From Bifidobacterium breve (GTDB lineage: Bacteria; Actinomycetota; Acidimicrobiia; Acidimicrobiales; Acidimicrobilacustridaceae), in NCBI GenBank assembly GCA_945862505.1, contig CAMAYJ010000019.1:1-38624 (forward strand): a stretch of DNA of 38,624 nt, in the 5' to 3' direction. The position numbers and the translations under genes are program-made. The notes under the pieces were generated by a model. It saw nothing but the letters and a program-made list of their open reading frames with translations, was not told the DNA's origin and did no database searches. This document shows, piece after piece, positions 11,121-26,370 of the stretch (position 1 is its first letter; every line of letters starts with the position of its first letter).

Positions 11121-11262
11121 CGGGTCTTTCTTGCAGCAGCTGACCTCGTCGCTGCGGCCAATCGTGCTGATACGTCGATCTTGCTTAGGTTCCTGTGGGC
11201 CACGCAAGGGAGAATCCGTCGCGCCATCGAGGGGGAACTTGAGTCGGCAGTATATGAAACGC
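11121..11262. other. Non-coding stretch upstream of the catabolic operon promoter
   Basis: There is no supported open frame between the MerB-like stop and the promoter. I see no clear hairpin with a T-tract. At 11255-11261 a TGAAACG half-site is repeated inverted as CGTTTCA at 11277-11283, so the regulatory region may begin here. Confidence 0.4.
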
Positions 11263-11335: not shown

Positions 11336-12526
11336 ATGAAACGTGGATTCAAGATCTTCGATGCTGACGCACATGTCATCTATCCGGCGGATCTCTGGCC
11401 GCGGTATCTGGACCAGAAATACCGTGACCGAATCGGCCGCAAGGCGCCTCCTGGATTCGATCACTACAACCCGGTGACGGTCGATGGTCGATGGTCGCAG
11501 CATTCGACGAGTGTCTACGGAAACTTCCAGAAGGCGATCAACTGGACCACTGAGGACATGGTCGCCCAATACGGCGACATGGTGATCGAGGGATTCACCG
11601 GAGATCGTGTGGCGAAGGCACTCGAGGTGGAGGGTGTCGATGTCATGGTCATTTACGGGCCCGAATATGACATGTGGCTCGATGGGATTGATCCGGAGCT
11701 GCAGGCTGCGATGGCCCGTGCCTACAACCGTTGGGGCGCGGAGATGCGCGAAATCTCGGGCGGAAAGGTCCTGACATCGGGTCCCGTCCCGTTAAACGAC
11801 GTCGGACGAGCGGTTGAGGAGATCCAGTACGCGTATGACGAATTGGGTGTTCGTTGCTTCTGGGCACGACCGAATCAGTTCAACCATCGCAATCTTGGCG
11901 ACCGTTATTACGACCCGGTATATGAACTTCTCGAGGAACTGGACTGTGCCTTCGCAACCCATGAGTACATGGGTCTCAATGCAACGACAGCCGGCTCGGA
12001 CAGGTTCACCACCTTCACCGAATGGCACACCGTGGTGCACGCACACGAGGCCCAGTACGCGTCGTTGTCCATGATCGTCAACGGCGTGTTCGAGCGCTAT
12101 CCAAAACTGCGGTGCGCGTACATGGAAGCGGGTTGCGGCTGGCTTCCGTCTTGGCTGCACCGCATCGATGAACATTTGGAACTAGCAGGAGCTCAAGAGT
12201 TCCCCGACCTGTCCATGAGCGCCACTGACTATTTTCGGCGTAATTGTTGGATCTCAACAGAATGTGATGATCCATTTGTTGCTGACGTGATCCGCTGGTT
12301 GGGCGATGACCACATTGTCTTTGAAACCGATTTTCCCCATCCTGATTCTAAGTACCCTCACGCCACCGATCATTTCTTTGATCTCTTGCCAAGCGAGATT
12401 TCCGAAGAATCGAAACGCAAGATTCTTTGGGACAACGCAGTTGATCTCTATCGGTTCCCACCCTCGTATCTGCCAGAGACGTTCGTTGAAGCACCGGCGA
12501 CATTGGCGACTGGAGCACAAGCATGA
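11336..12526 (+). CDS. Amidohydrolase-2 family protein A
   Basis: ATG 11336 follows a GGGGGG run with good spacing, and the frame encodes 396 residues; a TTG at 11309 is less likely. The N-terminus FDADAHV (D11-x-H13) replaces the DxHxH motif of amidohydrolase-2 (PF04909). His209 in ATHEY and Asp332 in ETDFPHPDS are further likely metal or catalytic ligands. A GCGWLPSWLHRIDEH segment is typical of this subgroup. The family includes ACMSD and resorcylate-type decarboxylases and lactone or ring-cleavage hydrolases; members with this N-terminus are mostly uncharacterised. It is the first gene of the operon and overlaps amidohydrolase B by 4 bases (ATGA), so they may form a pair. Confidence 0.88.
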   Translation: MKRGFKIFDADAHVIYPADLWPRYLDQKYRDRIGRKAPPGFDHYNPVTVDGRWSQHSTSVYGNFQKAINWTTEDMVAQYGDMVIEGFTGDRVAKALEVEGVDVMVIYGPEYDMWLDGIDPELQAAMARAYNRWGAEMREISGGKVLTSGPVPLNDVGRAVEEIQYAYDELGVRCFWARPNQFNHRNLGDRYYDPVYELLEELDCAFATHEYMGLNATTAGSDRFTTFTEWHTVVHAHEAQYASLSMIVNGVFERYPKLRCAYMEAGCGWLPSWLHRIDEHLELAGAQEFPDLSMSATDYFRRNCWISTECDDPFVADVIRWLGDDHIVFETDFPHPDSKYPHATDHFFDLLPSEISEESKRKILWDNAVDLYRFPPSYLPETFVEAPATLATGAQA

Positions 12527-13641
12527 TTGAAAGAGTGATATCGGCAGACTGCCATGTGACTGAGCCTCCTTCAGTCTTTGATCGAGTCCCAAAATCATTG
12601 CGAGACCGGGTTCCGAAAGTGATGACCGGTGCCGATGGTGGGGAAGGCTGGAGTTTTGACGGCAAACCGCCCAAGCGGACATTGGGCGTGGAGGCGATGG
12701 CTGGGCAGGCGAACGGGAAAGCTAGTGGTCTTCGCTTTGATGAAATCCTTCCGGGAAACTTCGATGGTGTTGCTCATGCCGCGGACATGGATCGCGACGG
12801 AATCGATGTCAGCGTCGTGTATCCGGCCAATGTGATTCACATGTACGTCGAAACGGATCGAGAGGTGGCGATCGCGTGCATAAAGTCCTATAACGATTGG
12901 CTTCTTGATGATTTCGCTGCGGCGGCTCCTGGGCGAATCGTCGGTCTTCCCCTCCTGCCTGTGGACGATGGGATTGATGTGTATCTCGCTGAACTCGATC
13001 GAGTCCTTGAAAAAGGTGCGAAAGCTGCGTTTATTCCAGGAAATCCTGCTCGCCCGTATCACGACAGTTATTTCGATCCGCTCTACAAGGCGGCTGTCGA
13101 AGCCGGAGTCCCGCTCACCTTCCACCGCACCTTCGGCGGAAAACCTTCTGAATCGGATTGGGACGAGCTTGTCAACCAACAAGTGACGGTCAGTGGAACC
13201 GTGTACCGGTTCTTCAGCGCAGCTCGTCCGTTCACCTACATGACCTATGGCGGGGTCTTTGAGAGGCATCCGGACCTCAAACTCGTAGCCGGAGAAGTGA
13301 ACTGTTCATGGTTGCCGTTCTGGGCCCAGACAATGGATCAGTGTTTCGACAATCCCTACTACCGCGCAACGGGTGGAGTTCGTATCGATCGTCGGCCGAG
13401 TGAGTTACTCGGAGAAAATCTTTTTGTAACGGTTCTCGATGACGATCTCGGCTTCAAAATGATCGCCGACGGGTTCTGGCCGCAACTTGCATCCTGCTCA
13501 ATGTTTTCGACTGACTACCCGCACAGCGTTTGCTTGTGGCCCGAAAGTGCTTCTTATATCGAGCGACTTACTGTGGGCATGAGCAGTGCGGACCGACACA
13601 GCGTTTTGGCAGGTAATGCCGCGCGGGTTTACGGAATCTAA
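12523..13641 (+). CDS. Amidohydrolase-2 family protein B
   Basis: This 372-residue protein begins at the ATG that overlaps the stop of protein A (ATGA). It has ISADCHV (D9-x-H11) at the start, His201 in LTFHRTFGG and Asp331 in FSTDYPHS, so most metal or catalytic positions of the amidohydrolase-2 barrel are kept. NCSWLPFWAQTMDQ matches the equivalent segment of protein A, and the two are likely paralogues with different substrates or a heteromeric pair. Hydrolysis or non-oxidative decarboxylation of a ring or ring-cleavage product is the likely role. The next gene starts 4 bases after its stop. Confidence 0.88.
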   Translation: MIERVISADCHVTEPPSVFDRVPKSLRDRVPKVMTGADGGEGWSFDGKPPKRTLGVEAMAGQANGKASGLRFDEILPGNFDGVAHAADMDRDGIDVSVVYPANVIHMYVETDREVAIACIKSYNDWLLDDFAAAAPGRIVGLPLLPVDDGIDVYLAELDRVLEKGAKAAFIPGNPARPYHDSYFDPLYKAAVEAGVPLTFHRTFGGKPSESDWDELVNQQVTVSGTVYRFFSAARPFTYMTYGGVFERHPDLKLVAGEVNCSWLPFWAQTMDQCFDNPYYRATGGVRIDRRPSELLGENLFVTVLDDDLGFKMIADGFWPQLASCSMFSTDYPHSVCLWPESASYIERLTVGMSSADRHSVLAGNAARVYGI

Positions 13642-13645
13642 GGCC

Positions 13646-14434
13646 ATGCTCCTCGAAGATCGGGTTGTCATCATTGGCGGTGCCGGACCAGGGCTCGGAC
13701 GAACCCTTGCGCTGCGCTGCGCTCGCGAGGGTGCCCACGTCGTACTCGCGGCGCGCACGCTTGCGACTGTTGAAGCAATCGCCGCCGATGTCCGGAAACT
13801 TGGTCGCCGGGCATTGCCGGTGGCGACCGACGTCATCGACAGGGATCAGGTTCGTGTCTTGGCTGAACGTGCTTTCGAGGAGTTCGGAAAGATCGACGCG
13901 CTTGTAAATGCGGCATTTCCGCCCACTCATCGTAAGAACGTCCTTGCAATGGACGATGAATACCTTGACTTGTGGCGGCATTGTATCGATGTCGCTGCAT
14001 ACGGGACGTTGCTGATGTCGCGGTTTGTGGCGCCGCTTATGGTTTCGGCCGGTAGCGGATCGATAGTGAACCTGACGTCGATGTCGAGCCGAATCGCCTA
14101 CGGGGGTCGAAGTGACTACGCCGCAGGCAAGGCCGCTGCACATCGTCTCGGCTGGGCTCTAGCCGATGAACTCGGGCCATCGGGTGTGAGGGTGAATGCA
14201 GTCGCACCGGGATTGATCTGGAGTTCGGTTCTCGAGGATTGGATCGCGACAACGGCTCGCGACGAGGGCATTTCTTACGAGTCGATGCTGGAGCGACATG
14301 TCCAGTCGATGGCGCTACGTCGAATAGCGACAGAGGATGAAGTGGCAAGTGCTGTGCTGTTTTTTGCATCGGACATGTCGTCCGGTATCACCGGCGCCAC
14401 ACTCGACGTCAACGCCGGTCAACTCTTTCAATAG
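13646..14434 (+). CDS. Short-chain dehydrogenase/reductase (SDR) 2
   Basis: This 262-residue SDR starts at ATG 13646, four bases after the previous stop; an upstream GTG in the same frame would overlap it. GGAGPGLG (11-18) binds the nucleotide. Ser145, Tyr158 and Lys162 (DYAAGK) form the catalytic set. NAAF replaces the usual NNAG, and the tetrad Asn region reads DVAAYG, so this is a divergent member. The C-terminus ITGATLDVNAGQLFQ is normal. Between amidohydrolases and an aldehyde dehydrogenase it probably oxidises a secondary alcohol, perhaps a 3-hydroxyacyl-CoA, but substrate class is inference. Confidence 0.9.
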   Translation: MLLEDRVVIIGGAGPGLGRTLALRCAREGAHVVLAARTLATVEAIAADVRKLGRRALPVATDVIDRDQVRVLAERAFEEFGKIDALVNAAFPPTHRKNVLAMDDEYLDLWRHCIDVAAYGTLLMSRFVAPLMVSAGSGSIVNLTSMSSRIAYGGRSDYAAGKAAAHRLGWALADELGPSGVRVNAVAPGLIWSSVLEDWIATTARDEGISYESMLERHVQSMALRRIATEDEVASAVLFFASDMSSGITGATLDVNAGQLFQ

Positions 14435-14443
14435 GTGATGACA

Positions 14444-15925
14444 ATGGCCTCGATCGAGCTCGTCGATTTCCTGCAGTTGATCGATGGGGAGCTTTGTCCT
14501 GCTTCATCCGGGAGATGGATCGAGAGCATCAATCCAGCGACGGGAGTCGCGTGGGCCCGCATCCCGCAAAGTGACGCTGCCGATGTCGCCGCTGCTGTTC
14601 AAGCCGCCGCCAATTCGTTTCCCGCGTGGTGGGCGCTTCCGTCCTTGCAGCGGGCGGCTCATCTGCGAGCGGTGGCTGACGTTATTCGTGTCAATGGTCG
14701 TGAGCTCGCCGAGATCGAGACACGTGACAACGGGCGTGTTCTGAACGAAACGCTGATGGGCGATATCCCGGCATGCGAGCAGATGTTTCATTTCTTCGCT
14801 GGCGCCGCCGACAAAGTGCATGGCGATACCGTCCAAGTCGGTCCACACAGTTTCAATTTCACGCGACGCGAACCCCATGGCGTGGTTGCAGTGATCATCC
14901 CTTGGAATGCACCACTTTCACTTATGTCGTCGAAGGTTGGAGCGGCACTGGCGGCCGGGAACACCGTGGTCATAAAGGCTGCAGAACAGGCGGCATGCTC
15001 GGTTCTCCGGTGGGCATCACTGCTTGAATCTGCAGGCCTCCCGCGCGGTGTTGTCAACGTGGTTGCCGGACTCGGGGAAGTTGCTGGCGATGCCCTGGTG
15101 TGCGATTCCAGTATCGGTAGGTTGACGTTCACTGGTTCAACCGAAACAGCCCGCATCATCCAAGATCGCGGGTCGTCCTTGATCCGACCTCTCCACTTCG
15201 AACTCGGAGGGAAGTCGGCGAACATCGTGTTCGCAGACGCCGACCTCGATGCGGCTGCCGTTGGTGTGAGCACGGCAGCGATCTTTACTGGAGGCGCCGG
15301 TCAGACATGTGTCGCTGGTTCCCGGATCCTGATACACGAGTCGATCCTTGACGAGATGATTGGGCGAATAACAGAGATCGCGTCAAGCGTCGTTCTAGGG
15401 GATCCCGCCGATCTGGCCACAACGATGGGCCCTATCGTTTCGGCCGATCAGTTGGATCGGGTGCGCGGTTTTATCGAGAACGCTCCCGCCGACGGAGCTG
15501 AACTCCTCCTCGGCGGCCGATCCCGTGCGGTCGAGATCTTCCCGTCAGATTCGCCGATGGCTTCCGGATACTGGGTCGAACCCACGCTGTTCCGCGTTCC
15601 GGGGAACGACCTGTCGATTTGCCAGCAAGAGATCTTTGGCCCCGTTGCAGTCATCATGCCGTTTGCCGATGATGAAGAAGCCGTGGCGCTCGCAAATGAC
15701 ACAAAGTACGGACTCGCAGCCGGCGTCTGGACAAGTGACCTGAAGCGAGGCCACCGGATGATTCGCGATCTCCAAGTCGGCTCAGTCTGGGTCAACGCCT
15801 ACCGGCGGATCCACTGGGCGCTTCCATTCGGGGGATTCGGGAATTCGGGATTTGGGAAGGACTCAGGTCTCGAGAGCGTGCTCGAGAACACTCGCATCAA
15901 GACCGGTTGGGTCGATCTTTCATGA
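14444..15925 (+). CDS. NAD(P)-dependent aldehyde dehydrogenase
   Basis: AGGTGA at 14433-14438 is 5 bases from ATG 14444, so this start is preferred (493 residues); GTG 14435 and ATG 14438 are in frame just upstream. All landmarks are present: PWN (Asn155), FELGGKS with Glu253, and GGAGQTCVAGSR with nucleophile Cys289. The length is standard. It should oxidise an aldehyde to an acid, or to acyl-CoA. Next to an Ltp2-like gene, it could remove the aldehyde left after an aldol-type cleavage. The stop overlaps the next start (ATGA). Confidence 0.93.
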   Translation: MASIELVDFLQLIDGELCPASSGRWIESINPATGVAWARIPQSDAADVAAAVQAAANSFPAWWALPSLQRAAHLRAVADVIRVNGRELAEIETRDNGRVLNETLMGDIPACEQMFHFFAGAADKVHGDTVQVGPHSFNFTRREPHGVVAVIIPWNAPLSLMSSKVGAALAAGNTVVIKAAEQAACSVLRWASLLESAGLPRGVVNVVAGLGEVAGDALVCDSSIGRLTFTGSTETARIIQDRGSSLIRPLHFELGGKSANIVFADADLDAAAVGVSTAAIFTGGAGQTCVAGSRILIHESILDEMIGRITEIASSVVLGDPADLATTMGPIVSADQLDRVRGFIENAPADGAELLLGGRSRAVEIFPSDSPMASGYWVEPTLFRVPGNDLSICQQEIFGPVAVIMPFADDEEAVALANDTKYGLAAGVWTSDLKRGHRMIRDLQVGSVWVNAYRRIHWALPFGGFGNSGFGKDSGLESVLENTRIKTGWVDLS

Positions 15926-17091
15926 GCGGCACTCATCCATTTCGTGATCGGACCGCGATTGCTGGTATCGGCCGAACGGATTACTCCAAGAATTCTGGGG
16001 TGAGCACCCTCACGCTCGCGTTGCGAGCCATTCGTGCGGCTCTTGATGACGCGGGACTTGCGACATCTGATGTTGACGGAGTTGCGTGTCATCGTGTCGG
16101 TGATTCAGTGCAAGCCACGATCGTCGCCCAAAGTCTGGGAATCAAGGACGTTCGGTTTCATCTGGATCTCTTTGGAGGTGGCAGCCAGTCGGCGTGGACG
16201 GTCGGACTCGCCGCCCAGGCAGTTGCCGCCGGGGTTGCCGACTGCATCGTGTGTTGGCGGTCGATCAACGCCCGTTCGGGTTTCCGCATGGGGGGAACAG
16301 GTCGCGCTGCGCCGGATTCGATCGAGTTCCAGTATCAGAGCCCGTATTGGTTCGCAACGCCACCGCAGCAGTTTGCGATGTACGGGCGTGCATACATGGA
16401 CAAGTACGGCGTGACTTCGGAAGATCTGGGACGTGTTGCGATTAGCCAAAGAGAATTCGCAACGCTGAATCCGCGGGCGATGATGCAGGCCCCGCTTTCC
16501 ATGGATGACTATCTGGAATCACGCATGATTGTTGAACCTTTCCGGCTTTTCGATTGCTGTCTCGAAACGGATGCAGCTGTGGCCGTCGTGATCACGTCAA
16601 CGGAACGGGCACGAACTTTGCGCCAACGCCCGGTCCTCGTGTCCAGTGCCGCCTGTGGCGGTGGCCACACGCTCTACTCGAATGGCCGCGACGATCTATC
16701 GACGAGCGGTGCGGCTCAACTTGCACCGAGACTTTTTGATGCCGCTGAGATGTCCCCGAGCGACATTGATGTCGCTGAGTTATACGACGCCTTCACGCCA
16801 CTGGTTCTCTTGCAACTCGAGGACTACGGATTTGTGGCGAAGGGCGAAGGAGCTGCGCTGGTTGCTGCGGGGTCGACGTCGCTAGGTGGTTCACTCCCTG
16901 TGAACACTCACGGAGGTCACCTTTCCGAAGGTTACGTTCACGGGTTGAATCATCTAGCAGAAGCTGTCGACCAACTTCGTGGCGATGCGGGTCCGCGTCA
17001 GACAGATGGGGCCGAAGTCGCCCTCGTCACCGGTCAACCCGGATATGTGGCCGGTACTTCGTCAGCATTGATCCTTCGGGCGGACAAGTGA
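15922..17091 (+). CDS. Ltp2-like thiolase-fold protein (probable acyl-CoA retro-aldolase), Cys nucleophile missing
   Basis: This 389-residue protein starts at ATG 15922, overlapping the ALDH stop. It belongs to the SCP-x/lipid-transfer-protein branch of thiolases: AELYDAFTPL (284-293), LEDYGF and NTHGGHLSEGYVHGLNH (328-344) are characteristic. Where thiolases have the GGSCAS nucleophile, it reads GGGSQSA, so Gln89 replaces Cys and thiolysis is unlikely. Tyr288 and Tyr338 sit in the two regions where Ltp2, the steroid side-chain retro-aldolase, has catalytic tyrosines (family knowledge, aligned by eye). Ltp2 works with a DUF35 domain, and a DUF35 gene follows directly with a 4-base overlap. 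I infer C-C cleavage of a beta-hydroxyacyl-CoA. Confidence 0.8.
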   Translation: MSGTHPFRDRTAIAGIGRTDYSKNSGVSTLTLALRAIRAALDDAGLATSDVDGVACHRVGDSVQATIVAQSLGIKDVRFHLDLFGGGSQSAWTVGLAAQAVAAGVADCIVCWRSINARSGFRMGGTGRAAPDSIEFQYQSPYWFATPPQQFAMYGRAYMDKYGVTSEDLGRVAISQREFATLNPRAMMQAPLSMDDYLESRMIVEPFRLFDCCLETDAAVAVVITSTERARTLRQRPVLVSSAACGGGHTLYSNGRDDLSTSGAAQLAPRLFDAAEMSPSDIDVAELYDAFTPLVLLQLEDYGFVAKGEGAALVAAGSTSLGGSLPVNTHGGHLSEGYVHGLNHLAEAVDQLRGDAGPRQTDGAEVALVTGQPGYVAGTSSALILRADK

Positions 17092-17516
17092 GCATCAATC
17101 GTCCGCTCCCTATTGCTGATCTTGATTCTGTCGCTTGGTGGTCTGCAGTTTCGCGGCATGAATTTGTCTGCGCGCGTTGTACCGATTGCAATGTGTGGCG
17201 CTGGCCCGCCCGAGCAATTTGTGGGGCGTGCGGTTCAATGACTTGGGAATGGCAGGAACTCACTGGCAACGGAACGATAGCGAGCTGGATCGTCAACCGG
17301 CATGGGTTCGGGGGGGCATTTCCTTTGCCATCGACAGTGGTTCTGGTCCGCCTTGCAGAGCAGGATGACTTGCTTCTACCCGGCGGGTGGGCTGGTTCGG
17401 CCGATGGCGCTGGCCTCTCGGTCGGTCTCTCGGTGGTGGTCGGATTCGAAGACATCGAATCCGAAACTGGTGACTCGGACCATGCCGTGCTTTCGTGGGG
17501 TCCTCGCGATGGCTGA
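17088..17516 (+). CDS. DUF35/OB-fold zinc protein, partner of the thiolase-like protein
   Basis: A 142-residue protein starts at GTG 17088, overlapping the previous stop (GTGA). CTDC (31-34) and CGAC (45-48) form a rubredoxin-like zinc ribbon. After it comes an OB-fold typical of the DUF35 (ChsH2-C-like) family, beginning TGNGTIASWIVNRHGF. DUF35 proteins bind acyl-CoA and are obligate partners of Ltp2-type aldolases and of some thiolases and HMG-CoA synthases. Here the domain stands alone instead of being fused to a MaoC hydratase, as it is in the cholesterol system. It overlaps the next gene by 8 bases. Confidence 0.87.
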   Translation: MSINRPLPIADLDSVAWWSAVSRHEFVCARCTDCNVWRWPARAICGACGSMTWEWQELTGNGTIASWIVNRHGFGGAFPLPSTVVLVRLAEQDDLLLPGGWAGSADGAGLSVGLSVVVGFEDIESETGDSDHAVLSWGPRDG

Positions 17517-18891
17517 GAACCTTGTCCGGCCATGGGACGCGGTCGACTATCAGGATTTAATGCGCAAGTACGCGCCGGCCCCCGACTACTTCAATTCGTC
17601 CTACCTTGACTCTCCGGCTGAAATCGAGTCGGTGCAGTTGGAGCGCCTCAAAGCGAAGGTCCACCGGGCATCGAAAATCCCGTTCTTCCGCGATCGATGG
17701 GCGAAAGCAGGAGTGGGTCCTGACGATCTGCGGTCGGTCAAAGACCTGTCCAGATTCCCGACCTATACCGTCGATGACATTCGGAAGAGCATCGATGATC
17801 ACCCTCCATTCGGCGATTACCAGGGTGTAGTTCCATCAGACGCCACGCGCGAACCTATGCGTGTCTTCATGTCGGGTGGAACAACCGGCAAGTCGCGACC
17901 GACGTTCTATACGCAGTGGGATCGGGATGTCGGTGCACTCCTGACCGCGCGTGCGCTCTACATGCAGGGGATCCGGCCTGGCGACGTGGTCTTAAACTCG
18001 TGGGCCTACGGCCTCCACAATGGCGCCTTCTCGTTTGATGAGGCACTCGCTCGTTGGCTCAATTGCGTCGTGATCACAACGAGTACGGGCAATGTGACAA
18101 GCACCGAACGGCAAGTCGAGCTGGCGATCGAATACGGAGCGTCGGCCATCTGCACAACGGGTGACTACCTCCTGCGCATCGCGGAGGCAGCACGCGCTTT
18201 GGGATATGACCCGAAGGTTGACCTCAAGCTCCGGGCGCTGCCGAACATCGGTGATCCCGAGGTGCTCTCGGAAACGTTCGGAGTCGAGTATTTCAGGTCA
18301 TATGGATTCCACGAAGTCCAGTGGGTATCCGTGGAATGTCCAGCGCATGACGGCCTTCACATTTTCGAAGATGCCTACATCGTTCAGGTGGTCGATGCTG
18401 AAACCGGTGAAGAACTCCCTGACGGTGAACTGGGAGCGGTTGTCGTAACCGAGCTCTACAAAACCGGGAGTTCACAGTTTCGGTACAACATTATGGACCT
18501 CTCCTTTCTCCATCCCCGCGGACAATGTGAGTGTGGATCCTGGTTGCGACGAATGGGGCCGTTCGCAGGTCGCGGTGACAACATGGTGAAACTGAGGGGA
18601 ATAAATCTGTGGCCGGAGGGAGTCGGCGAGGTTGCATGTGCTGTGGATGGCATCGATCCGGATTATTTCGTTCGGGTCTGGCGCGATGGAAATCGAGATG
18701 AGATGGAAATCGCGGTTGTCAGTCGCAGAGATCCCGCGTTGTTCGGCTCCCAGCAGTCGGAACTCGAAGCGGTGCTCAACCATCGTTTCGGAGTGAGAAT
18801 TCACGCCAAGGTGGTTGCTCCGGGAGCTCTTGACTCAGACACTGAATTGCATACATCACCAAAATCAAAACGCTTCCGCGACGAACGATAG
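17509..18891 (+). CDS. PaaK-like acyl/aryl-CoA ligase (AMP-forming)
   Basis: This is a 460-residue adenylate-forming enzyme from ATG 17509, which overlaps the DUF35 stop by 8 bases; longer in-frame extensions would lie entirely within that gene. MSGGTTGKSR (121-130) is the P-loop, SYGFHE is the YGxTE-like motif, and GRGDNMVKLRGINLWP is the hinge region of phenylacetate-CoA ligases. The family loads CoA onto arylacetates and related acids. The RYxTGD motif appears as RYNIMDLS, with Asp kept and Thr-Gly changed. It probably activates the pathway's carboxylic acid. A second activation enzyme, the ADP-forming synthetase, is encoded downstream. Confidence 0.9.
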   Translation: MAENLVRPWDAVDYQDLMRKYAPAPDYFNSSYLDSPAEIESVQLERLKAKVHRASKIPFFRDRWAKAGVGPDDLRSVKDLSRFPTYTVDDIRKSIDDHPPFGDYQGVVPSDATREPMRVFMSGGTTGKSRPTFYTQWDRDVGALLTARALYMQGIRPGDVVLNSWAYGLHNGAFSFDEALARWLNCVVITTSTGNVTSTERQVELAIEYGASAICTTGDYLLRIAEAARALGYDPKVDLKLRALPNIGDPEVLSETFGVEYFRSYGFHEVQWVSVECPAHDGLHIFEDAYIVQVVDAETGEELPDGELGAVVVTELYKTGSSQFRYNIMDLSFLHPRGQCECGSWLRRMGPFAGRGDNMVKLRGINLWPEGVGEVACAVDGIDPDYFVRVWRDGNRDEMEIAVVSRRDPALFGSQQSELEAVLNHRFGVRIHAKVVAPGALDSDTELHTSPKSKRFRDER

Positions 18892-18903
18892 GAGGAACTG
18901 CAA

Positions 18904-19464
18904 ATGACCGAACAGCGTCCGATCGGCAAGGTGTACAACATCGCGCCTCAACCACACGATGAATCGAACACGCAGTGGATCGATGCAGGAGTGGTACGCA
19001 TCGGTGTCGAGTACCGGGATGTATCCCCGGAGGATCTTGAGGCGCTCTATTCGCGCGATGCGGCGGAGCTTGCCGAATTGCGCGAGAAGTCTCCGGTGGG
19101 TGGATTCTCCGATGAAGGAGTGTCACTGCACATTGCAGGAACTGTTGATGGGCACGAATATCTTCGGTTCGATGTCTTCGATGGCGAACCGCACTATCAC
19201 TACGTTCATAAGGTCGTACCCGGCGGAGAAGTGACGAATCAGGTGATTGACTTCGACGCTGCGGCGGAAGGCGACATGCTTGAGTGGGCCTTGGCACGAA
19301 TTGCGACCCGGCTCCCCCAGATGTTGACGGCCGCTGGTGGCGCGGAACTGGCTGGCATGATCAATCAACCTGAATTAAGCGCAGCTCTTGATCAAGTGGC
19401 GCGATTAGCAACGGCCGCCCAGTCCGCTTATCGGGCAGGACGGGATGGAGAGGGTTGTCGATGA
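18904..19464 (+). CDS. Uncharacterised protein with PHYHYVH motif
   Basis: AGGAGG upstream of ATG 18904 makes the start secure (186 residues). I do not recognise the family with certainty. The middle, GVSLHIAG...YLRFDVFDGEPHYHYVH, is predicted beta-rich and ends in H97-Y-H99-Y-V-H102, which could bind a metal or just mark a conserved turn. Residues 120-180 look helical (EWALARIATRLPQML; alanine-rich end). There is no signal peptide or membrane segment. Its place between the CoA ligase and TetR in a coupled operon suggests a pathway accessory, small enzyme or ligand-binding protein. Its stop overlaps the TetR start by 4 bases. Confidence 0.75.
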   Translation: MTEQRPIGKVYNIAPQPHDESNTQWIDAGVVRIGVEYRDVSPEDLEALYSRDAAELAELREKSPVGGFSDEGVSLHIAGTVDGHEYLRFDVFDGEPHYHYVHKVVPGGEVTNQVIDFDAAAEGDMLEWALARIATRLPQMLTAAGGAELAGMINQPELSAALDQVARLATAAQSAYRAGRDGEGCR

Positions 19465-20108
19465 CTGCTACCACAACCGAAATTGGCAAGACCACTCGAA
19501 TTCGTTTGATGCAGGTTGCTGAAAAACTCTTCGCGGAGCGCGGTATCGATGGAGTATCAATTCGCGATATCACCAATGAAGCCGATGTAAGTTCCGCTTC
19601 AATTCACTATCACTTTGGCTCAAAGGCGGAACTTGTTGCAGCGATCCTTGACTGGAGAGCTGCGGAAGTCGGAGCCAGACGGGCAACATGGCTTGACCAA
19701 ATCGAGAGCAATCTGGACGCTTCTTTGCGCCAGGTTCTCGAGGCGTTTGTCATTCCGACTGCGGAGATGGCTGCCGATATAGAAGGAGGTGGGCAGTTCC
19801 ACATTGGCTTCTTGGCGGCGGTGTTAGCGAACCCTGCGCACATGCCTTTGATGATCGCCGCATTTGAGCCGTATACCCACCGATTTGAGATCGCGTTAGC
19901 TCGGGTCACTCCACACCTCGATCCAAATGTGCGGGAGTTGCGACTCGCGCTAGCAAAAGACATGGTCAATCGTGTGATCGGCCAACCTGATGGGCCAGTT
20001 CACGCATGGTTAGAGATTCGGGCTCCTGGTGCAGACGATGAATTACCGGAAAGACTCATTGATTTTTTGACTGGAGCGTTTTCCGCTCCATCGGACAATA
20101 AGTCATGA
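19461..20108 (+). CDS. TetR-family transcriptional regulator 2 (embedded in operon)
   Basis: This 215-residue regulator starts at ATG 19461 (GAGAGGG upstream), overlapping the previous stop. The helix-turn-helix lies at about 33-52 (SIRDITNEADVSSASIHYHF), followed by GSKAELV. The C-terminal domain is helical and ligand-binding in type. It overlaps the next gene by ATGA. Being translated from the middle of the operon fits autoregulation: the operon's own intermediate would release it from the palindrome at 11270-11281. The regulator-site match is inference. Confidence 0.91.
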   Translation: MTATTTEIGKTTRIRLMQVAEKLFAERGIDGVSIRDITNEADVSSASIHYHFGSKAELVAAILDWRAAEVGARRATWLDQIESNLDASLRQVLEAFVIPTAEMAADIEGGGQFHIGFLAAVLANPAHMPLMIAAFEPYTHRFEIALARVTPHLDPNVRELRLALAKDMVNRVIGQPDGPVHAWLEIRAPGADDELPERLIDFLTGAFSAPSDNKS

Positions 20109-20962
20109 CTCTCATTATCGATTATTTATGTAATGGGTTCTCGCCGTCTGCTTCTGAAGCATGGCAACGATCGATCGAAGCCCAAGGTCTCTCTCTCAAG
20201 ATTCGTCAAAATCCCGATGACGGTTTTTGTGATCCGTCAACTCTCGTTGAGCGAATGGACGCACTAGGAATCTCTGCATTGCAGATTGTTATGAGCGATG
20301 AACAGCATCACCATGGCGCGTTCAACTTTTCCGATGTCACTGCCCGATATGACGAGGTTTCCGATCTCGTGCGCTCGTACCCAAGCCGGTTCTATGGGCT
20401 TTGGTGTTTTGACGCAAACGGCGGAATCGCAGGCGTTGAACGGGCTCGGGAAGTTCTCCGTAACGACTGGGTGGTTGGTTTGTATAACCATGTCCACTCT
20501 TGGGATCGGCCATTTGATCATGCCGACTTCTATCCCTATTACATGCTTGCATCGGAACTTGATGTTCCCGTCGTGATGCAAGCGGGAACGTCAGGAGGGC
20601 TCGTCCCAAGCGAATGCGGTCATCCCATCGGGATTGATCGCCCAGCTATTTATTTCCCGACAGTGCGCTTCGTGCTCTCCCATACGGGTTGGCCATGGGT
20701 TGATGAGGCAATTGCGATGGCTCTGAAATTTCCAAATGTATTTCTCGGAACGGCGGCCTATCCGGCTCGACACTGGTCTTCGTCGCTAGTGGAATTTCTG
20801 CGCGGACCGGGACGTACGAAAACGCTTTTTGGAACAAATTTTCCCACAGTTGGCCACCGCAACGCTTTGGAGCAGGTGTCTGAGCTCGATCTAACAGATC
20901 AGACGCGTGAGGATTATCTGGGCGGTACCGCTCGCAGAGTGTTCTCCCGGTTGCCATGTTGA
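20105..20962 (+). CDS. Amidohydrolase-2-like protein C with degenerate metal site
   Basis: A 285-residue protein starts at ATG 20105, overlapping the TetR stop. The barrel resembles amidohydrolase-2: VLSHTGWPW (His193) and LFGTNFP. But the first-strand DxHxH reads DYLCN (Leu8 and Asn10 instead of His), the second-site His is Gln159 (VMQAGTSGG), and the catalytic Asp is Asn245. With three of the four ligand groups lost it is unlikely to hold a catalytic metal. It may be a regulatory or partner subunit of the other amidohydrolases in the operon, a metal-free enzyme, or a binding protein. It overlaps the next gene by 7 bases, so it is probably expressed. Confidence 0.8.
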   Translation: MTLIIDYLCNGFSPSASEAWQRSIEAQGLSLKIRQNPDDGFCDPSTLVERMDALGISALQIVMSDEQHHHGAFNFSDVTARYDEVSDLVRSYPSRFYGLWCFDANGGIAGVERAREVLRNDWVVGLYNHVHSWDRPFDHADFYPYYMLASELDVPVVMQAGTSGGLVPSECGHPIGIDRPAIYFPTVRFVLSHTGWPWVDEAIAMALKFPNVFLGTAAYPARHWSSSLVEFLRGPGRTKTLFGTNFPTVGHRNALEQVSELDLTDQTREDYLGGTARRVFSRLPC

Positions 20963-23121
20963 GAGCAAATGAGCTACTTGCGCAGGGGTTTCGTTTGGCG
21001 GAGACACCAGACCGATCTTTGGTGCCTGAACCATTGGTGAAACAAGAACTTTCGATCCTTGGAGTCTCTGTCCCACGGAGCGTTGCCATCGAATCAGACT
21101 GCACCGATCCTCAGTTGCGAGTGTCACATTTGTCTTCCCCGCTCGTTGTAAAAGCTTTCGGCCCGGGGATCGTCCATAAATCTGAACTTGGAGCAGTTGT
21201 TTTAGGGGTTACCCACGAAGAGGTTGCCGCAACTGTTCGAGTAATGGCGGGCAACTTATCCAGTCTCGGTCTATCCCCAACAGGTTTTCTAATCGAAGAA
21301 ACGGTGCCGCCTGGAATTGAATTAGTGATTGGGGCAACACGGACACCCTTTGGAATCACAATCGCTTTTGGCCTTGGTGGTGTTATGGCCGAGATCCATG
21401 ATGACGTATCGGTGCAACTTGCTCCGCTAACCGTTGAGAGTGTGGAGACGCTCTTAGACGGGTTTCGCTCGTCAGCGCTTTTACGCGGAGCGCGGAATTC
21501 ACCTCCGGTGGACCGAAATGCACTTGTCGAATTGCTTTTAGCAATTGCTGGTACAGATGGATTCATCATGAGTCTGGGCGAACAATTCACAGATCTTGAT
21601 TGCAATCCAGTAATCGCGCGCCCTGATGGGGCGACGGTCGCTGACGCCCGGCTCATTTTGAAAGACCCTGATCCAATCGTCGACGACCGCGCACTGCCGG
21701 TTGATTTCGAAGCGCTCTTTTCACCGGCGTCCATAGCGGTCGCTGGGGTATCAACCAAGGGGACAGGGTTCGGGAATCGCGCAATCGCCGCCTATCGGGC
21801 CTTCGGCTGGACCGAGGGTCTTTCTGTTATTCATCCTTCCGCAGCGAGCGTTGACGACACTCCGGCTTACTCGTCTGTAAAGGAGATCCCCGGAGGAGTG
21901 GATTACCTCCTAGCTGCGGTTCCTGCTGCGGCGTGCGCCGATCTCATTCGATCAGCGGCTGGGTTTGCCCGTGTGGTTCATGTCGTAAGCGGTGGTTTCA
22001 GTGAAGCAGGGCCTCAAGGAACTTCTTACGAATCTGACCTTCTGAAGGCGGCTAGAGATTCGGGAGTCCGCGTTATTGGCCCCAATTGTATTGGCGTTTA
22101 TGCGGCTGCTGGTCGGCAGACATTTTTGTTAGGTGCTCCATCACAAAGCGGAGGTGTGAGTGTTGTCAGCCAGAGCGGAGGTCTTGCTGGTGACATCTTA
22201 AAGATTGGAGCGGCCCGAGGGCTGCGCTTTGCAAAAGTTATTTCAGTTGGTAATGGAGTTGACGTTGCTCCAGCAGAATTTGTCGAGCACTTTCTTAACG
22301 ATGGCGAGACACAGGTGATTGGTTGCTATCTCGAAGGTTGTTCAGGCGGTGAACGGTTGGTGGCTGCATTTCGCGAGGCGCAAGGACGCGTGCCTGTAGT
22401 CGTTATGACCGGTGGGTTGAGCGACCAAGGATCCCGCGCTGCTGCCTCACACACGGGTGCGCTCACAGGAGATCGACGCATCTGGAGTGCGATTCGCAGT
22501 GCAACGAATGTGGCTGTTGTTGAACGGCTTGAAGACTTCATTGGGGCGCTGGTTTACATACAACGATATTCAGGGTCTGTGATTGAAGGTGGCTCTGAAG
22601 TTCTGGTGGTGGGCGTCGGTGGTGGAGCCTCAGTACTTGCTGCAGATGCGTGTGATCGCGCCGGATTAAATCTTGAACCAGTCCAACCCGAAATCGTTGA
22701 GTCATTACGGGTGCTTGGTTACGGTGCCGGAACCAGTGTTTCAAACCCCATTGAGATTGGGGTGGGTCCGGCGGCACCACCAAATGTCTTTGATGAGGTT
22801 CTTGAGAATGTTCTGTCAACCCAAAAATTCTCTGATGTTCTGTTGCATGTGAATGTGCAGTCGTATTACGGGTTCGGTACAGCAGGTGTTGCGCCGCTTT
22901 GTGAATTGATCAGATCGGTAGCTTCGTCCTGGAGTGCACCGCGCTACGAGAAATCTCGATTCGCACTTGTTCTGCGGAACTTGAATGCGGCACCCGGGGT
23001 TGAGCGAGACAACGTTCTACAGACTGCAGCTGCAGTTGGTCTTCCAGTTTTTGAAAATTTTGATGAGGCTGCCGCAGCAATAGCGGCCACAAAAGAAGTT
23101 GCGCACGGAGAAAACCGATAG
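20956..23121 (+). CDS. ADP-forming acyl-CoA synthetase, beta-alpha domain order
   Basis: This 721-residue protein starts at ATG 20956 inside the end of the preceding gene. Residues ~22-235 form the ATP-grasp (beta) domain (VVKAFGPGIVHKSELGAV, IAFGLGGVMAE). About 252-375 is the CoA-binding Rossmann domain (FSPASIAVAGVS, VIGPNCIG). About 398-560 is the succinyl-CoA-ligase-like domain with the phospho-histidine in AAASHTGALTG (His499). The enzyme should interconvert acyl-CoA + ADP + Pi with acid + CoA + ATP, so it could activate the substrate or recover ATP from an acyl-CoA product. The more common single-chain order is alpha then beta; here beta comes first. G+C is lower than in the first half of the operon. 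Confidence 0.9.
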   Translation: MLRANELLAQGFRLAETPDRSLVPEPLVKQELSILGVSVPRSVAIESDCTDPQLRVSHLSSPLVVKAFGPGIVHKSELGAVVLGVTHEEVAATVRVMAGNLSSLGLSPTGFLIEETVPPGIELVIGATRTPFGITIAFGLGGVMAEIHDDVSVQLAPLTVESVETLLDGFRSSALLRGARNSPPVDRNALVELLLAIAGTDGFIMSLGEQFTDLDCNPVIARPDGATVADARLILKDPDPIVDDRALPVDFEALFSPASIAVAGVSTKGTGFGNRAIAAYRAFGWTEGLSVIHPSAASVDDTPAYSSVKEIPGGVDYLLAAVPAAACADLIRSAAGFARVVHVVSGGFSEAGPQGTSYESDLLKAARDSGVRVIGPNCIGVYAAAGRQTFLLGAPSQSGGVSVVSQSGGLAGDILKIGAARGLRFAKVISVGNGVDVAPAEFVEHFLNDGETQVIGCYLEGCSGGERLVAAFREAQGRVPVVVMTGGLSDQGSRAAASHTGALTGDRRIWSAIRSATNVAVVERLEDFIGALVYIQRYSGSVIEGGSEVLVVGVGGGASVLAADACDRAGLNLEPVQPEIVESLRVLGYGAGTSVSNPIEIGVGPAAPPNVFDEVLENVLSTQKFSDVLLHVNVQSYYGFGTAGVAPLCELIRSVASSWSAPRYEKSRFALVLRNLNAAPGVERDNVLQTAAAVGLPVFENFDEAAAAIAATKEVAHGENR

Positions 23122-23181
23122 TGGGGACAGGCAGTTCATCAAAGTCATTTCGAATCAAAATACTCAAAAAAGCGAGGGAAA

Positions 23182-24462
23182 ATGGAAAAGAAAATGAAGT
23201 CACCAGGTGTCGCAGCAAGTTTTGAGGCGGTGAATTGGAATCCATCGGGTCTGCCGGATGATCCTGATGAGATTTTGGACTGGCTCATTGATGGTGAAAA
23301 ACGGGGCGAGTACTACCCGCTTCTGCGCAAGTTGCGCGAAGTTGCACCCGTCTACAAGAACCGTCCGGAGTTTTTCCATGGGGCATGGATGTTTACTCGG
23401 TTTCAGGAAACTGATGAGATATTCCGTGATCAGCGGGTCGTGAATAATCCACAGGTGATTGATGAGGCTTTCAATCATGGAGATGGCTCATTCACGGGGG
23501 TTATGCGTGATGTCATGTTGTGGCAAGAGCCGGAGCCCCATCAACGGGTACGCAATCTTGTGAAATCCGCGTTCACTCCAAGAGCGATAGCTCGGTGGCA
23601 GCCGATTGCGGAGCGGGTTGCAAATGATCTCATCGACAGATTTGAGGGCGATGATCAGGCAGACCTTGTGAAGCAGTACAACTATGAAATCCCGTTCAAC
23701 GTCATCGCCCACATTCTTGGTATTCCTGAAGAGGACTTCCCGAAGATTAGGGAGTTCGCATGGGACTTTGCGCGTGCTGGCGAAAAACTGGTAACTCCGG
23801 AAGTCTCCAAGCGCGGTGATGAAGCGGCTCGCGGCTTGGTCGCATATTTCGAGAATCTTGCGGAAGTCCGATCGGGAAATCCTGGTGATGACTTGATGTC
23901 GTCGTTGCTCGCAGCAGAGACAGATGGTGCGCGGTTGTCGCGGCGAGAACTCGTTGCGAACTGCATTCTTTTACTCCAAGCGGGTCACGAAACCACTCAG
24001 GACCTATTAGGCAATGCTCAGGTAGCTCTTTTCCGTAACCCTGATCAATTGTCAATGCTTCGCGATAATCAAGAGCTCATGAAGAATGCAGTCGAAGAGT
24101 TTCTTCGGTACGACGCTTCGGTGCAGATCAATCATCGGGTTGTGCTAGATGGAATGACTATCGGCGATATTGAGATCCCAGTCGGCGGGATGATTTATAT
24201 ATTTCTTGGAGCAATTAACCGCGATCCAACTCGCTATCCGGATCCTGATCGACTTGAGATCACCCGTGATGTCACAAGTCATCTAGCATTCTCGTTTGGT
24301 GCGTACTACTGCATCGGGGCTTCACTCGCCCGTATCGAAACTGCGGTTGGCATCAGGACTTTGCTTGATCGGCTGCCGGAACTACGACCTGCCACAGGTG
24401 AGTTTCGATGGCGCGACACGCTTCAACTACGTGGACCGCAGGAACTCTCAGTGGCTTGGTGA
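23182..24462 (+). CDS. Cytochrome P450
   Basis: This 426-residue soluble bacterial P450 begins at ATG 23182, with GCGAGGG just upstream. The I-helix AGHETT (267-272), ExxR (E306-R309) and heme loop FSFGAYYCIG with Cys377 are all present. At two residues before the cysteine most bacterial P450s have His or Arg contacting a heme propionate; here it is Tyr375. Electron-transfer partners (ferredoxin, reductase) are not in the window. It probably hydroxylates the pathway substrate or an intermediate. The 60-base gap before it is the widest in the operon and may hold an internal promoter, but I see no clear boxes. Local G+C is low (26 of 60 in 23401-23460). Confidence 0.95.
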   Translation: MEKKMKSPGVAASFEAVNWNPSGLPDDPDEILDWLIDGEKRGEYYPLLRKLREVAPVYKNRPEFFHGAWMFTRFQETDEIFRDQRVVNNPQVIDEAFNHGDGSFTGVMRDVMLWQEPEPHQRVRNLVKSAFTPRAIARWQPIAERVANDLIDRFEGDDQADLVKQYNYEIPFNVIAHILGIPEEDFPKIREFAWDFARAGEKLVTPEVSKRGDEAARGLVAYFENLAEVRSGNPGDDLMSSLLAAETDGARLSRRELVANCILLLQAGHETTQDLLGNAQVALFRNPDQLSMLRDNQELMKNAVEEFLRYDASVQINHRVVLDGMTIGDIEIPVGGMIYIFLGAINRDPTRYPDPDRLEITRDVTSHLAFSFGAYYCIGASLARIETAVGIRTLLDRLPELRPATGEFRWRDTLQLRGPQELSVAW

Positions 24463-24505
24463 CCAATGCCAATGGCTAAATCGATTTGGGGAGACAGGAG
24501 GGGCA

Positions 24506-25531
24506 GTGGCGGCCAAAGTTCAATTCGGGACCGGTACAACTGCTCGTGACTTTGGCGAGTATCGGCGATGGTTGGAAGCAGCCGAGTTTGCTGGATTTGA
24601 TTTGCTCACTGCGGGCGACTCGCAAACATTGTGGGCAGATTGCTTTTCGATGCTCACAGTTGCCGCCACCGTCACCAGCCGTCCTCGGCTCGCGCTAACT
24701 GTCACTAATCCGCAAACACGCCACCCTTCTGTTTCCGCGGCGGCGGCAGCGTCAGTCCAACAAATCTCGGGCGGTCGATTCTCCTACGGCATATCTTCGG
24801 GTGACTCCGCGCTCCGAAACATTGGGGTTAACCCCAGTACTGTCAAGGAACTGGGGGAGTACGTGACGGCCATGAAAGGTCTCACGGCAGGTGAAACTGT
24901 CACTTGGGAGGGGAACGATCTTTCGCTTCGGTGGCTGACTGATCCGGTTCGGGTGCCGGTGTGGATCGCCGCAGAGGGACCCAAAACCCAACGACTTGCT
25001 GGCCAGATTGCCGATGGAGTCATTCTTTCGAATTCTTTAACTTCTGAGCGGCTTTCACTAGCAAAAGCCAATATTGCTGCGGGCGCAATCGAAGTTGGTC
25101 GAGATCCCGAGTCCATAGAGATTTGGCACATGTGCAATCTGATTTTCGCTCCAACGGAAGAAGCTGGAATTGATTCGATCCGCTCAGTTCTGGCAGGAAC
25201 AGCGAATCATGTCTTTCGTTTCACTTTGAAAGGGAAAGGGTTACCTGAACATCTTGAGGGCCCGATGGCAGCGATGATGGGTGACTACCAGTCTCGTTTC
25301 CATGCGCATCCTGGATTGGCGAACCCGAATGAAAAACTTGTGGATCAATATGGGCTTCGTGACTACCTCGCCCCACTGGGCACGATTGCGGGCCCGCCGG
25401 AGCACTGTGTTGAAAGAATTCAGGAAGTGGCAAAGATTGGAGCGACGAACTTGATCGTGAGTCAATTTGTGGCTGACCAGTTCACGTGGATGGAAACTTT
25501 TGCTCGTGAGATTGCGCCCAACTTCAGATAA
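24506..25531 (+). CDS. Luciferase-like F420/flavin-dependent oxidoreductase
   Basis: AGGAGGGG at 24497-24504 directly precedes GTG 24506, the preferred start (341 residues). Any longer frame from 24296 would overlap the P450 gene and is spurious. TVTNPQTRHPS, ISGGRFSYGISSGDSAL and PVWIAAEGPKTQRLAGQIADGVI are typical of the luciferase-like family close to F420-dependent methylene-H4MPT-reductase-like proteins of actinobacteria. Cofactor F420 is likely but not proven; an FMN monooxygenase is the alternative. It probably reduces, dehydrogenates or oxygenates a pathway intermediate. It is 43 bases after the P450 gene and 11 bases before the next start. Confidence 0.9.
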   Translation: MAAKVQFGTGTTARDFGEYRRWLEAAEFAGFDLLTAGDSQTLWADCFSMLTVAATVTSRPRLALTVTNPQTRHPSVSAAAAASVQQISGGRFSYGISSGDSALRNIGVNPSTVKELGEYVTAMKGLTAGETVTWEGNDLSLRWLTDPVRVPVWIAAEGPKTQRLAGQIADGVILSNSLTSERLSLAKANIAAGAIEVGRDPESIEIWHMCNLIFAPTEEAGIDSIRSVLAGTANHVFRFTLKGKGLPEHLEGPMAAMMGDYQSRFHAHPGLANPNEKLVDQYGLRDYLAPLGTIAGPPEHCVERIQEVAKIGATNLIVSQFVADQFTWMETFAREIAPNFR

Positions 25532-25542
25532 AGGAGGCGGCA

Positions 25543-26370
25543 GTGCCCGTTAACGAAGTAGCAGTGATCGACTGTCATCATCATGTTGGAACGCTCGAAG
25601 CGCATGGAATGATCTTTTCTCTGGATGACAACCAGAAAGATTTGCAAGGGGCAGACAGAGACCTCCGTATCGCGGTGATGAGTAGACAGGGCGTTGACCA
25701 GGCGGTCGTGATCCCTGGTCATGGCTATCTTCGTCCCAATGGAGTTGCCGATACCCGTAGTGTGAATGATGCCGTCGCCGCTTTTCGCGACAGTGCCCCA
25801 GAGCGATTTCCGGCGGCAGTGGGTATCGCCGAACCACTTCACGGGAGTGCTGGTCTCGCGGAACTACATCGAATGCGGGATGTTTTGGGTTTTGTGGGTG
25901 TGAGCATCCACGTTCGTTTCCAAGGGGTTCAGACCGATAGTCCGCTTGTTAAAGCTCTGGTCCGTGAAGCAGCAGATCTTGGACTTGTCCCATTCGTCCA
26001 CGCCATGGATGGGGTCCCCGATGAATCGATTTGGCGCGTTCAGCAGTTAGCTCAGGAGATTCCAGAGACAACGATTCTTGTGCTTGACGCGTTAAATGGC
26101 GTCGAACAGGCACGCCACGCAACAATCATTGCTCGTGAAACGCCGAATCTCGTGTTTGATACCAGTTTCGCTTATCACTACATGTTTGTTCAGGCCATGA
26201 TCGATGCGGTTGGATTTGAGCGGGTCTGTTTTGGCACCGATTACTACTCAATGTTGCCTGATCCTCAACCGAGTGTGGTTCTAGACCATTTCGAAAAACA
26301 TGAGGTAGACCTAGAAATCCGTCGAGCGGTACTCGGAGGAAATTTACAAAGAGTGCTCGGACTTCATTAA
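25543..26370 (+). CDS. Amidohydrolase-2 family protein D
   Basis: AAGGAGG at 25531-25537 is 5 bases before GTG 25543 (275 residues). This is the most classical of the amidohydrolases here: IDCHHHV gives D10-x-H12-x-H14, with His153 in PFVHAMDG and Asp233 in FGTDYYS. The third His region reads LDALNG, so Asp182 stands where His is common. The short length fits compact TIM-barrel hydrolases such as lactonases (2-pyrone-4,6-dicarboxylate hydrolase, for example) or decarboxylases. As the last gene of the 14-gene run it may act on a ring-opened or lactone intermediate. The following 56 bases separate it from a convergent gene. Confidence 0.9.
   Translation: MPVNEVAVIDCHHHVGTLEAHGMIFSLDDNQKDLQGADRDLRIAVMSRQGVDQAVVIPGHGYLRPNGVADTRSVNDAVAAFRDSAPERFPAAVGIAEPLHGSAGLAELHRMRDVLGFVGVSIHVRFQGVQTDSPLVKALVREAADLGLVPFVHAMDGVPDESIWRVQQLAQEIPETTILVLDALNGVEQARHATIIARETPNLVFDTSFAYHYMFVQAMIDAVGFERVCFGTDYYSMLPDPQPSVVLDHFEKHEVDLEIRRAVLGGNLQRVLGLH

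Follow-up and report, generated by a model that had tools for sequence, protein, structure and literature searches.

An operon joining amidohydrolase-fold proteins, acyl-CoA ligases and an Ltp2-like aldolase, probably for carboxylic acid breakdown, in a freshwater actinobacterium

What is the task of a set of fourteen closely spaced genes that combines amidohydrolase-fold proteins with two kinds of acyl-coenzyme A (acyl-CoA) ligase, an Ltp2-like aldolase and a cytochrome P450? This question is raised by positions 11336 to 26370 of contig CAMAYJ010000019.1 (C19 of a 2.32 Mb genome with a completeness of 99.55%), and the whole contig, 38,624 bases in length, was analysed and is referred to below as the window. 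The locus is a conserved 11-gene operon followed by three lineage-specific genes, and it probably breaks down a carboxylic acid in a freshwater actinobacterium. The original prediction of a coordinated catabolic operon matching no named pathway is supported by the conservation both of gene order and of a palindrome close to the promoter, and no named pathway was matched in the searches made. The parts belong to known families and their combination appears to be new; a literature search of titles, abstract starts and passages, with subscription papers mostly outside it, found no paper joining these enzyme types.

Layout and conservation of the operon

All fourteen open reading frames (ORFs) were found on the + strand in the ORF listing, as had been predicted (Table 1). 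Using the likeliest starts, the gaps at successive junctions are -4, +4, +3, -4, -4, -8, +12, -4, -4, -7, +60, +43 and +11 bases, which agrees with the overlaps of 4 to 8 bases first described (7 of the 13 junctions) and with a widest gap of 60 bases. The start choice for genes 3, 4 and 13 is our own judgement, and gene 1 was taken to begin at the ATG at 11336, with a GTG also present at 11309. Every gene class named in the original prediction was confirmed by Pfam, and the gene it had left unnamed, gene 8, encodes a DUF7700 protein. A fourth barrel protein with a degenerate site had also been noted, and in this protein, gene 10, the D-x-H motif, the strand-5 His and the last Asp are all replaced in 8/8 aligned rows.

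A comparison with locus L009 showed purifying selection on all 14 genes, with ratios of nonsynonymous to synonymous substitution (dN/dS) from 0.019 for gene 1 to 0.158 for DUF7700. Genes 1 to 11 are collinear in the diverged Acidimicrobiia genome L011 at 58-89% protein identity. Among the 80 loci compared, genes 12 to 14 occur in the window order solely in the near-identical L008-L010, metagenome genomes of Acidimicrobiia/Actinomycetota that are also the closest relatives by Ltp2 protein. The selection on 14 genes, the collinearity of genes 1 to 11 in L011 and the degenerate state of gene 10 together argue that the operon is more than a chance arrangement.

Gene presence was scored in a class sample of 296 genomes at identities of at least 64% for gene 1, 59% for the gene 7 ligase, 64% for Ltp2 (gene 5) and 53% for gene 2. 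Gene 1 and the gene 7 ligase were present in an identical set of 10 of the 296 genomes (hypergeometric probability 8e-19, computed ignoring relatedness). An eleventh gene 1 match, in G032, had 47% identity and no ligase match, and neither gene 1 nor gene 7 was matched at these thresholds in three genomes of the same genus (G023, G217 and G291). Gene 10 and DUF7700 were clustered with gene 1 and the ligase in nine of the ten genomes (the window, L011, L119 and L147-L152, with DUF7700 truncated where the contig stops in L152); in the tenth, G250, gene 1, the ligase and gene 10 lie within approximately 7 kb and DUF7700 is on a separate contig. Of 20 distinct loci with an ortholog of the ligase, the window included, 19 also have gene 10; in the twentieth, L022, the contig ends inside the ligase. 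Gene 1, the PaaK-like ligase, gene 10 and DUF7700 thus make up a first module. Ltp2 was found in five genomes (G000, G119, G131, G218 and G250), all of them among the eight with gene 2, and the two genes share a cluster in four of the five, lying on different contigs in G250; gene 2, Ltp2 and DUF35 make up a second module. Both modules are found side by side in the Yinghuangia loci L014 and L016.

Genes similar to HyuA/HyuB (hydantoinase/oxoprolinase) were observed near the cassette or the aldolase module in L147, L148, L152 and L040, an assignment based on Pfam for L148 (both genes) and L147 (HyuA) and on similarity for the others.

Metal sites of genes 1 and 2 and the proposed pathway

Genes 1 and 2 had at first been called hydrolases, a name that the present analysis does not support: their nearest solved relatives include proven oxygenases, and both proteins hold the oxygenase metal ligands. 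The class of amidohydrolase-fold oxygenases was recognised only recently, and very few of its members have been described (PMC10811679). The ligands of the PF04909 oxygenases are, in AibH2, Asp25, His27, His211, Glu265, Asp337 and His340 (PMC10811679, PMC10401708, PMC7782822, PMC10127204). An acidic residue two positions past the last His (Asp342 in AibH2, Glu313 in PtmU3, Asp325 in LynB7) is reported as a conserved feature of the binuclear members alone, missing in the mononuclear AibH1 (PMC7782822). Gene 1 carries all seven dinuclear-oxygenase marks (D11, H13, H209, E264, D332, H335 and D337); the marks, among them the six ligands (D-x-H, H, E, D-x-x-H), are invariant in 5/5 aligned rows, and the seventh mark (D-x-x-H-x-[DE]) is D337 in TDFPHPD. 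Its nearest solved chains in a profile search were 4dzi, 8sm9, PtmU3, AibH2 (8e-20), 8sm7 and DitZ. Gene 2 has its six ligands in 11/11 aligned rows, and its best profile matches were PtmU3 (2e-57) and DitZ (2e-51), far ahead of the third-ranked solved chain (3e-25). Its predicted fold, with a predicted local distance difference test score (pLDDT) of 81.7, was best matched by DitZ (Z 38.5, root-mean-square deviation 3.0, 348 residues aligned) and also by PtmU3 (Z 35.4, deviation 3.0, 333 aligned); for DitZ the literature search yielded the PDB title alone, and no function. As judged from sequence, and for gene 2 also from predicted fold, genes 1 and 2 look like metal enzymes using O2 rather than hydrolases, gene 1 with the full dinuclear marks.

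From the gene content, the ligand and catalytic residues, the conserved modules and the palindrome we infer the following chemistry, step order and type of substrate, tentatively and at somewhat less than an even chance. The locus would be a TetR-controlled operon for carboxylic acid catabolism via acyl-CoA, with hydroxylation by a metal oxygenase and retro-aldol cleavage by Ltp2. The PaaK-like ligase (gene 7) would form the CoA thioester of the acid, and the dinuclear metal oxygenase of gene 1, perhaps together with gene 2, would hydroxylate the acyl chain with O2. The beta carbon is the most likely position by analogy with PtmU3, described as a beta-hydroxylase of diterpenoids that accepts CoA-ligated substrates. 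The beta-hydroxyacyl-CoA would then be split in a retro-aldol reaction by Ltp2 and DUF35 (genes 5 and 6), the freed aldehyde oxidised by the aldehyde dehydrogenase of gene 4, and the product re-ligated by the ADP-forming ligase of gene 11. The short-chain dehydrogenase of gene 3 may act on a side alcohol, and genes 12 to 14 may adapt the pathway in the window's lineage. The route of oxygenation, CoA ligation, retro-aldol cleavage and aldehyde oxidation in the original prediction keeps its logic; the oxygenation is not necessarily the task of the P450, since genes 1 and 2 resemble oxygenases and the P450 lies in the non-conserved tail.

The main support for a hydroxylation that feeds retro-aldol cleavage is the recurrent pairing of amidohydrolase-fold genes with Ltp2-DUF35. 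Among the matches listed, an Ltp2-like place lies within 5 kb of 14 of 133 gene-2-like places, five of them adjacent and on the same strand (at most six candidates scored per genome; Ltp2 places, at least 150). In three of the five (G154, G188 and G107) the gene directly 5' of Ltp2-DUF35 encodes the PtmU3-type motif ASDYPHPE, and its distance to the Ltp2 match is 9, 21 and 53 bases respectively; in the other two pairs the partner is a gene 2 ortholog whose seventh mark is Val. The usual makers of an Ltp2 substrate are not in the operon, as no acyl-CoA dehydrogenase or MaoC hydratase domain was found by Pfam among the 30 window proteins scanned. A count of acyl-CoA dehydrogenase and MaoC motifs around 81 Ltp2 loci, including that of the window, gave no MaoC at any locus; such a motif is too insensitive, and the count carries no weight here. 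The catalytic tyrosines of gene 5, Y293 and Y343 (numbered from codon 15907), are both retained in 48/48 loci at 57% identity or more, and correspond to Tyr294 and Tyr344 given for TcLtp2 (PMC12329534). Gene 5 has YDAF at the position of YDHF in TcLtp2, so the His is not retained; its loss in TcLtp2 is reported to carry a 14-fold cost, which argues that this His is not essential.

A second amidohydrolase-Ltp2-DUF35 set, with Val at the seventh position, was observed in the window's own genome (L239, G000:C11, 7880-13003), with two genes similar to CoA-transferase family III beside it.

Several observations weigh against the proposed pathway. Gene 2 has Val336 in place of the acidic seventh residue and is for this reason not classed as a dinuclear oxygenase; Val is found there in 10/10 ortholog rows and in L119, L121, L122 and L123. 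(The AibH2 D342A variant is reported to take up metals still, with diminished activity, so gene 2 could nevertheless bind two metals.) The top match of gene 1, 4dzi, is a chain without known function, the proven oxygenase SfbO (6e-11) falls under the decarboxylase 3s4t (2e-13) in the same search, and decarboxylases reach Z 29 against the model of gene 2. The full seven-mark pattern is present in 17 of the 28 Amidohydro_2 proteins of the same genome (PF04909 places L181-L208) and the six ligands in 21 of the 28; being so common, the pattern predicts the class and not the specific reaction of gene 1. A small Rieske ferredoxin motif (C-x-H...C-x2-H) was not found in the window; co-occurrence with such a ferredoxin is given as 90% for AibH2-like proteins (PMC10401708), and is thus usual, not universal. 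Elsewhere in the genome there are five Rieske matches; two of them are in small ORFs and have P450-like genes on the same stretch. A crotonase gene at 29203-29973 could hydrate an enoyl-CoA instead. All eight further stretches of the class that carry the cassette (L147-L152, L119 and L121; 11-20 kb) were without an Ltp2 match, which speaks against a fixed link between the two modules; often, then, gene 1 has no linked Ltp2 to feed. Five of the 10 genomes with gene 1 lack gene 2, and three of the 8 with gene 2 lack gene 1, which also weakens an obligate pairing of the two as in AibH1H2.

If these proteins are oxygenases, the operon may be one instance of a more general module, present again in several Acidimicrobiia with parts that have diverged, that provides an O2-dependent bypass of beta-oxidation: an amidohydrolase-fold oxygenase would add a beta-hydroxyl to an acyl-CoA, and Ltp2/DUF35 would cut it. 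We regard this extension as doubtful. If true, it would allow the degradation of acids that cannot be desaturated, e.g. those with a quaternary alpha carbon, and would provide biological roles for a large class of uncharacterised PF04909 oxygenases. Conserved clusters with a CoA ligase and a C-C-cleaving aldolase give amidohydrolase-fold oxygenases a concrete reaction to test, and suggest that many 'hydrolase' annotations in such actinobacteria are oxygenases, which would correct the annotation-based view of such operons.

Two further amidohydrolase-fold genes were observed. At 33232-34686 (+) the window holds another Amidohydro_2 protein with all seven marks (SDLGHWD), beside kinase-like and 2-hydroxyacid dehydrogenase genes, and in L134 (G083:C2:815478-816656) a gene 1 ortholog at 69% contains one in-frame TGA, either a sequencing error or a broken gene.

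Alternative explanations and accompanying genes

The alternative that survives best is that genes 1 and 2 encode PF04909 enzymes of the ordinary, non-redox sort (a decarboxylase, hydrolase or hydratase) and that the P450 oxygenates, gene 2 as a hydratase then possibly supplying the beta-hydroxyacyl-CoA to Ltp2. We consider it unlikely, if by no means negligible. The family does include carboxylases, hydratases and hydrolases, gene 2 resembles the mononuclear AibH1 at its seventh position, the window has no Rieske motif and one decarboxylase ranks above SfbO for gene 1. However, 5-carboxyvanillate decarboxylase scores 3e-20 against PtmU3 at 2e-57 for gene 2, and gamma-resorcylate decarboxylase 2e-13 against AibH2 at 8e-20 for gene 1. 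In addition, gene 1 holds every published dinuclear mark that could be checked, and the P450 is outside the conserved part of the operon.

It is rather improbable that the locus consists of two or three independent short units acting on different substrates (genes 1/7/10/8, genes 2/5/6/11 and genes 12-14), as the occurrence of the modules apart in other genomes and the 60-base gap ahead of gene 12 might suggest. In the window and in L011 the modules are interleaved with overlapping genes, not stacked, one promoter element is common to both loci, and the two Yinghuangia loci hold both modules together.

Breakdown of steroid or bile-acid side chains by a system of the known Ltp2-ChsH1/ChsH2 type is very improbable. 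TcLtp2 is the nearest solved chain to gene 5 and the DUF35 protein has a Cys4 zinc motif, but this reading was dropped as the lead since neither the hydratase nor the dehydrogenase partner was found among the 30 scanned proteins; YDAF also replaces YDHF, and the ligases of sterol catabolism are of another kind than the PaaK-like gene 7. Riboflavin/lumichrome catabolism, with its P450, amidases and aldolase, was rejected, the term 'CoA' being absent from the accessible text of that paper.

Table 1. Features of the operon and its promoter region, with the evidence for each assignment
Feature	Position	Strand	Evidence
Promoter and operator-like site	11255..11291	+	TTGACA at 11263-11268
Palindrome AAACGATCGTTT	11270-11281	+	Inside longer inverted repeat, arms 11250-11261 and 11277-11288
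Putative -10 TACCGT	11286-11291	+	Our reading
Gene 1, Amidohydro_2 protein	11336..12526	+	Pfam 117.4 bits, cut-off 26.4 (PF04909)
Gene 2, PtmU3/DitZ-like Amidohydro_2 protein	12523..13641	+	Six ligands D9, H11, H201, E258, D331, H334
Gene 3, short-chain dehydrogenase	13646..14434	+	Pfam 165.6 bits; GxxxGxG and YxxxK present
Gene 4, aldehyde dehydrogenase	14438..15925	+	Pfam 503.2 bits; FELGGKS and GQTC motifs
Gene 5, Ltp2-like aldolase	15922..17091	+	Thiolase_C_1 (Pfam); TcLtp2 6ok1 match 3e-88
Gene 6, stand-alone DUF35	17088..17516	+	Pfam zf-ChsH2 and OB_ChsH2_C; Cys4 zinc motif C-x2-C-x10-C-x2-C
Gene 7, PaaK-like AMP-forming acyl-CoA ligase	17509..18891	+	AMP-binding_C_2 35.1 bits
Gene 8, DUF7700	18904..19464	+	Pfam 119 bits; model pLDDT 87.9
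Gene 9, TetR regulator, PsrA-like	19461..20108	+	Pfam TetR_N, TetR_C_30
Gene 10, short amidohydrolase-fold protein without metal-ligand set	20105..20962	+	Pfam 86 bits
Gene 11, ADP-forming acyl-CoA ligase	20956..23121	+	Pfam ATP-grasp_5, CoA_binding_2, Succ_CoA_lig
Gene 12, cytochrome P450, lineage-specific tail	23182..24462	+	Pfam 84.1 bits
Gene 13, luciferase-like F420-type oxidoreductase, lineage-specific tail	24506..25531	+	Pfam 161.5 bits
Gene 14, short Amidohydro_2 protein, lineage-specific tail	25543..26370	+	Pfam 79.4 bits

The promoter region contains the sequence AAACGNNCGTTT, which is found at the matching position 5' of gene 1 in the near-identical L009 and also in L011, where the surrounding sequence has diverged. 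It is this conserved position, and not its count, that makes the palindrome credible: one match at up to one mismatch was found in the window against 1.61 expected, which is not unusual, and CAAACGNNCGTTT had two matches in the genome against one for the reversed control. A sigma-70 scan made no promoter call at 11255-11291, and the palindrome is absent from L012 and L040, two loci whose TetR relatives show identities of 53% and 50%. It is a reasonable inference from the sequence that gene 9 binds the palindrome and that the operon is self-regulating. Gene 9 scored 74.4 bits against the NCBIfam PsrA model, under its cut-off of 300. Just 5' of the operon promoter, at 10356-11120 (+), is a gene for a MerB (alkylmercury lyase) family protein.

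Profile matches of the gene 7 ligase include 4r1l (1e-55) and the 2-hydroxyisobutyryl-CoA synthetase 6hdw (1e-28), and it contains the motifs SGGTTG, YGFHE and RYNIMD. Gene 11 contains the sequence SHTGAL, which we take to be the catalytic sequence of the ADP-forming ligase. A search of the DUF7700 model against solved folds listed no clear match, with a best Foldseek PDB E-value of 0.03 and a best VIA Z of 4.6, values that are not proof of a new fold. A role for DUF7700 as a dedicated oxygenase accessory is not supported: of its 18 matches in the class, 10 are outside the cassette, and an amidohydrolase match was present in only 6 of these 10 stretches. A defence-system reading of genes 8, 10 and 14 gave no match. 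In the tail, the cysteine region of the P450 is FSFGAYYCIG, with Tyr at the usual His/Arg position, so that the strict motif is unmatched; gene 13 has a 6-base Shine-Dalgarno match ahead of 24506, and AAAGGAGG precedes the GTG start of gene 14.

Convergent with the operon, at 26427-28685 (-), lies a gene for a xanthine/CO dehydrogenase-like molybdenum large subunit, a relative of which (49%) is found near the L119 cassette; the 30 window proteins scanned include no medium or small subunit. The ORFs at 7769-8908 (-), 8905-9393 (-) and 36897-38546 (+), with 379, 162 and 549 amino acids respectively, had no Pfam match at 0.001. The G+C content is 0.633 in positions 1-6000 and 0.554 in 6001-38624, compared with 0.567-0.585 in five other stretches of the same genome, possibly marking an island edge or an assembly join.

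Comparison with known systems

The gene 7 ligase shares AMP-binding_C_2 and the adenylation motifs with the PaaK family and 2-hydroxyisobutyryl-CoA synthetase, but it scored 205.8 bits against the PaaK model NCBIfam TIGR02155, far under the curated cut-off of 646.3. Like the Ltp2-DUF35 steroid aldolases TcLtp2-ChsH2 and CtSal-CtShy, the operon has a thiolase-like aldolase followed by DUF35, with a Tyr base and a Tyr acid, and the zinc motif of gene 6 is also described for TcChsH2. It differs from them in the YDAF sequence, in a DUF35 protein without a hydratase domain and in having no MaoC or acyl-CoA dehydrogenase among the scanned proteins.

The HBC operon of Mycolicibacterium neoaurum (atf1, chsH4, chsE6 and kstR3; PMC10398937) likewise combines an Ltp-type aldolase with a separate DUF35 gene and a negative regulator. 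However, the HBC operon acts on sterols, no amidohydrolase is named in the accessible part of PMC10398937, and its chsE6 is called a reductase there, whereas the gene annotation of Mn_4964 is an acyl-CoA dehydrogenase. The aib operon of Rhodococcus wratislaviensis, for alpha-aminoisobutyrate catabolism, shares two amidohydrolase-fold proteins, a dehydrogenase and an aldehyde dehydrogenase with the present operon, but has genes for a Rieske ferredoxin and a flavin mononucleotide (FMN) reductase, and no CoA enzyme appears in the accessible part of its gene table.

The amidohydrolase-related dinuclear oxygenases (AibH1H2, PtmU3 and SfbO; LynB7) include proven enzymes; for the operon proteins such activity is predicted from sequence, and for gene 2 also from the modelled fold. 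The operon differs from them in having no Rieske motif nearby, in joining an acyl-CoA ligase and an aldolase, and in the Val at the seventh position of gene 2. It shares with them PF04909, the six ligands in genes 1 and 2 and the seventh acidic residue in gene 1, and the fold of gene 2 is best matched by DitZ and PtmU3. As aibH1 and aibH2 are neighbours, so are genes 1 and 2, which overlap by 4 bases.

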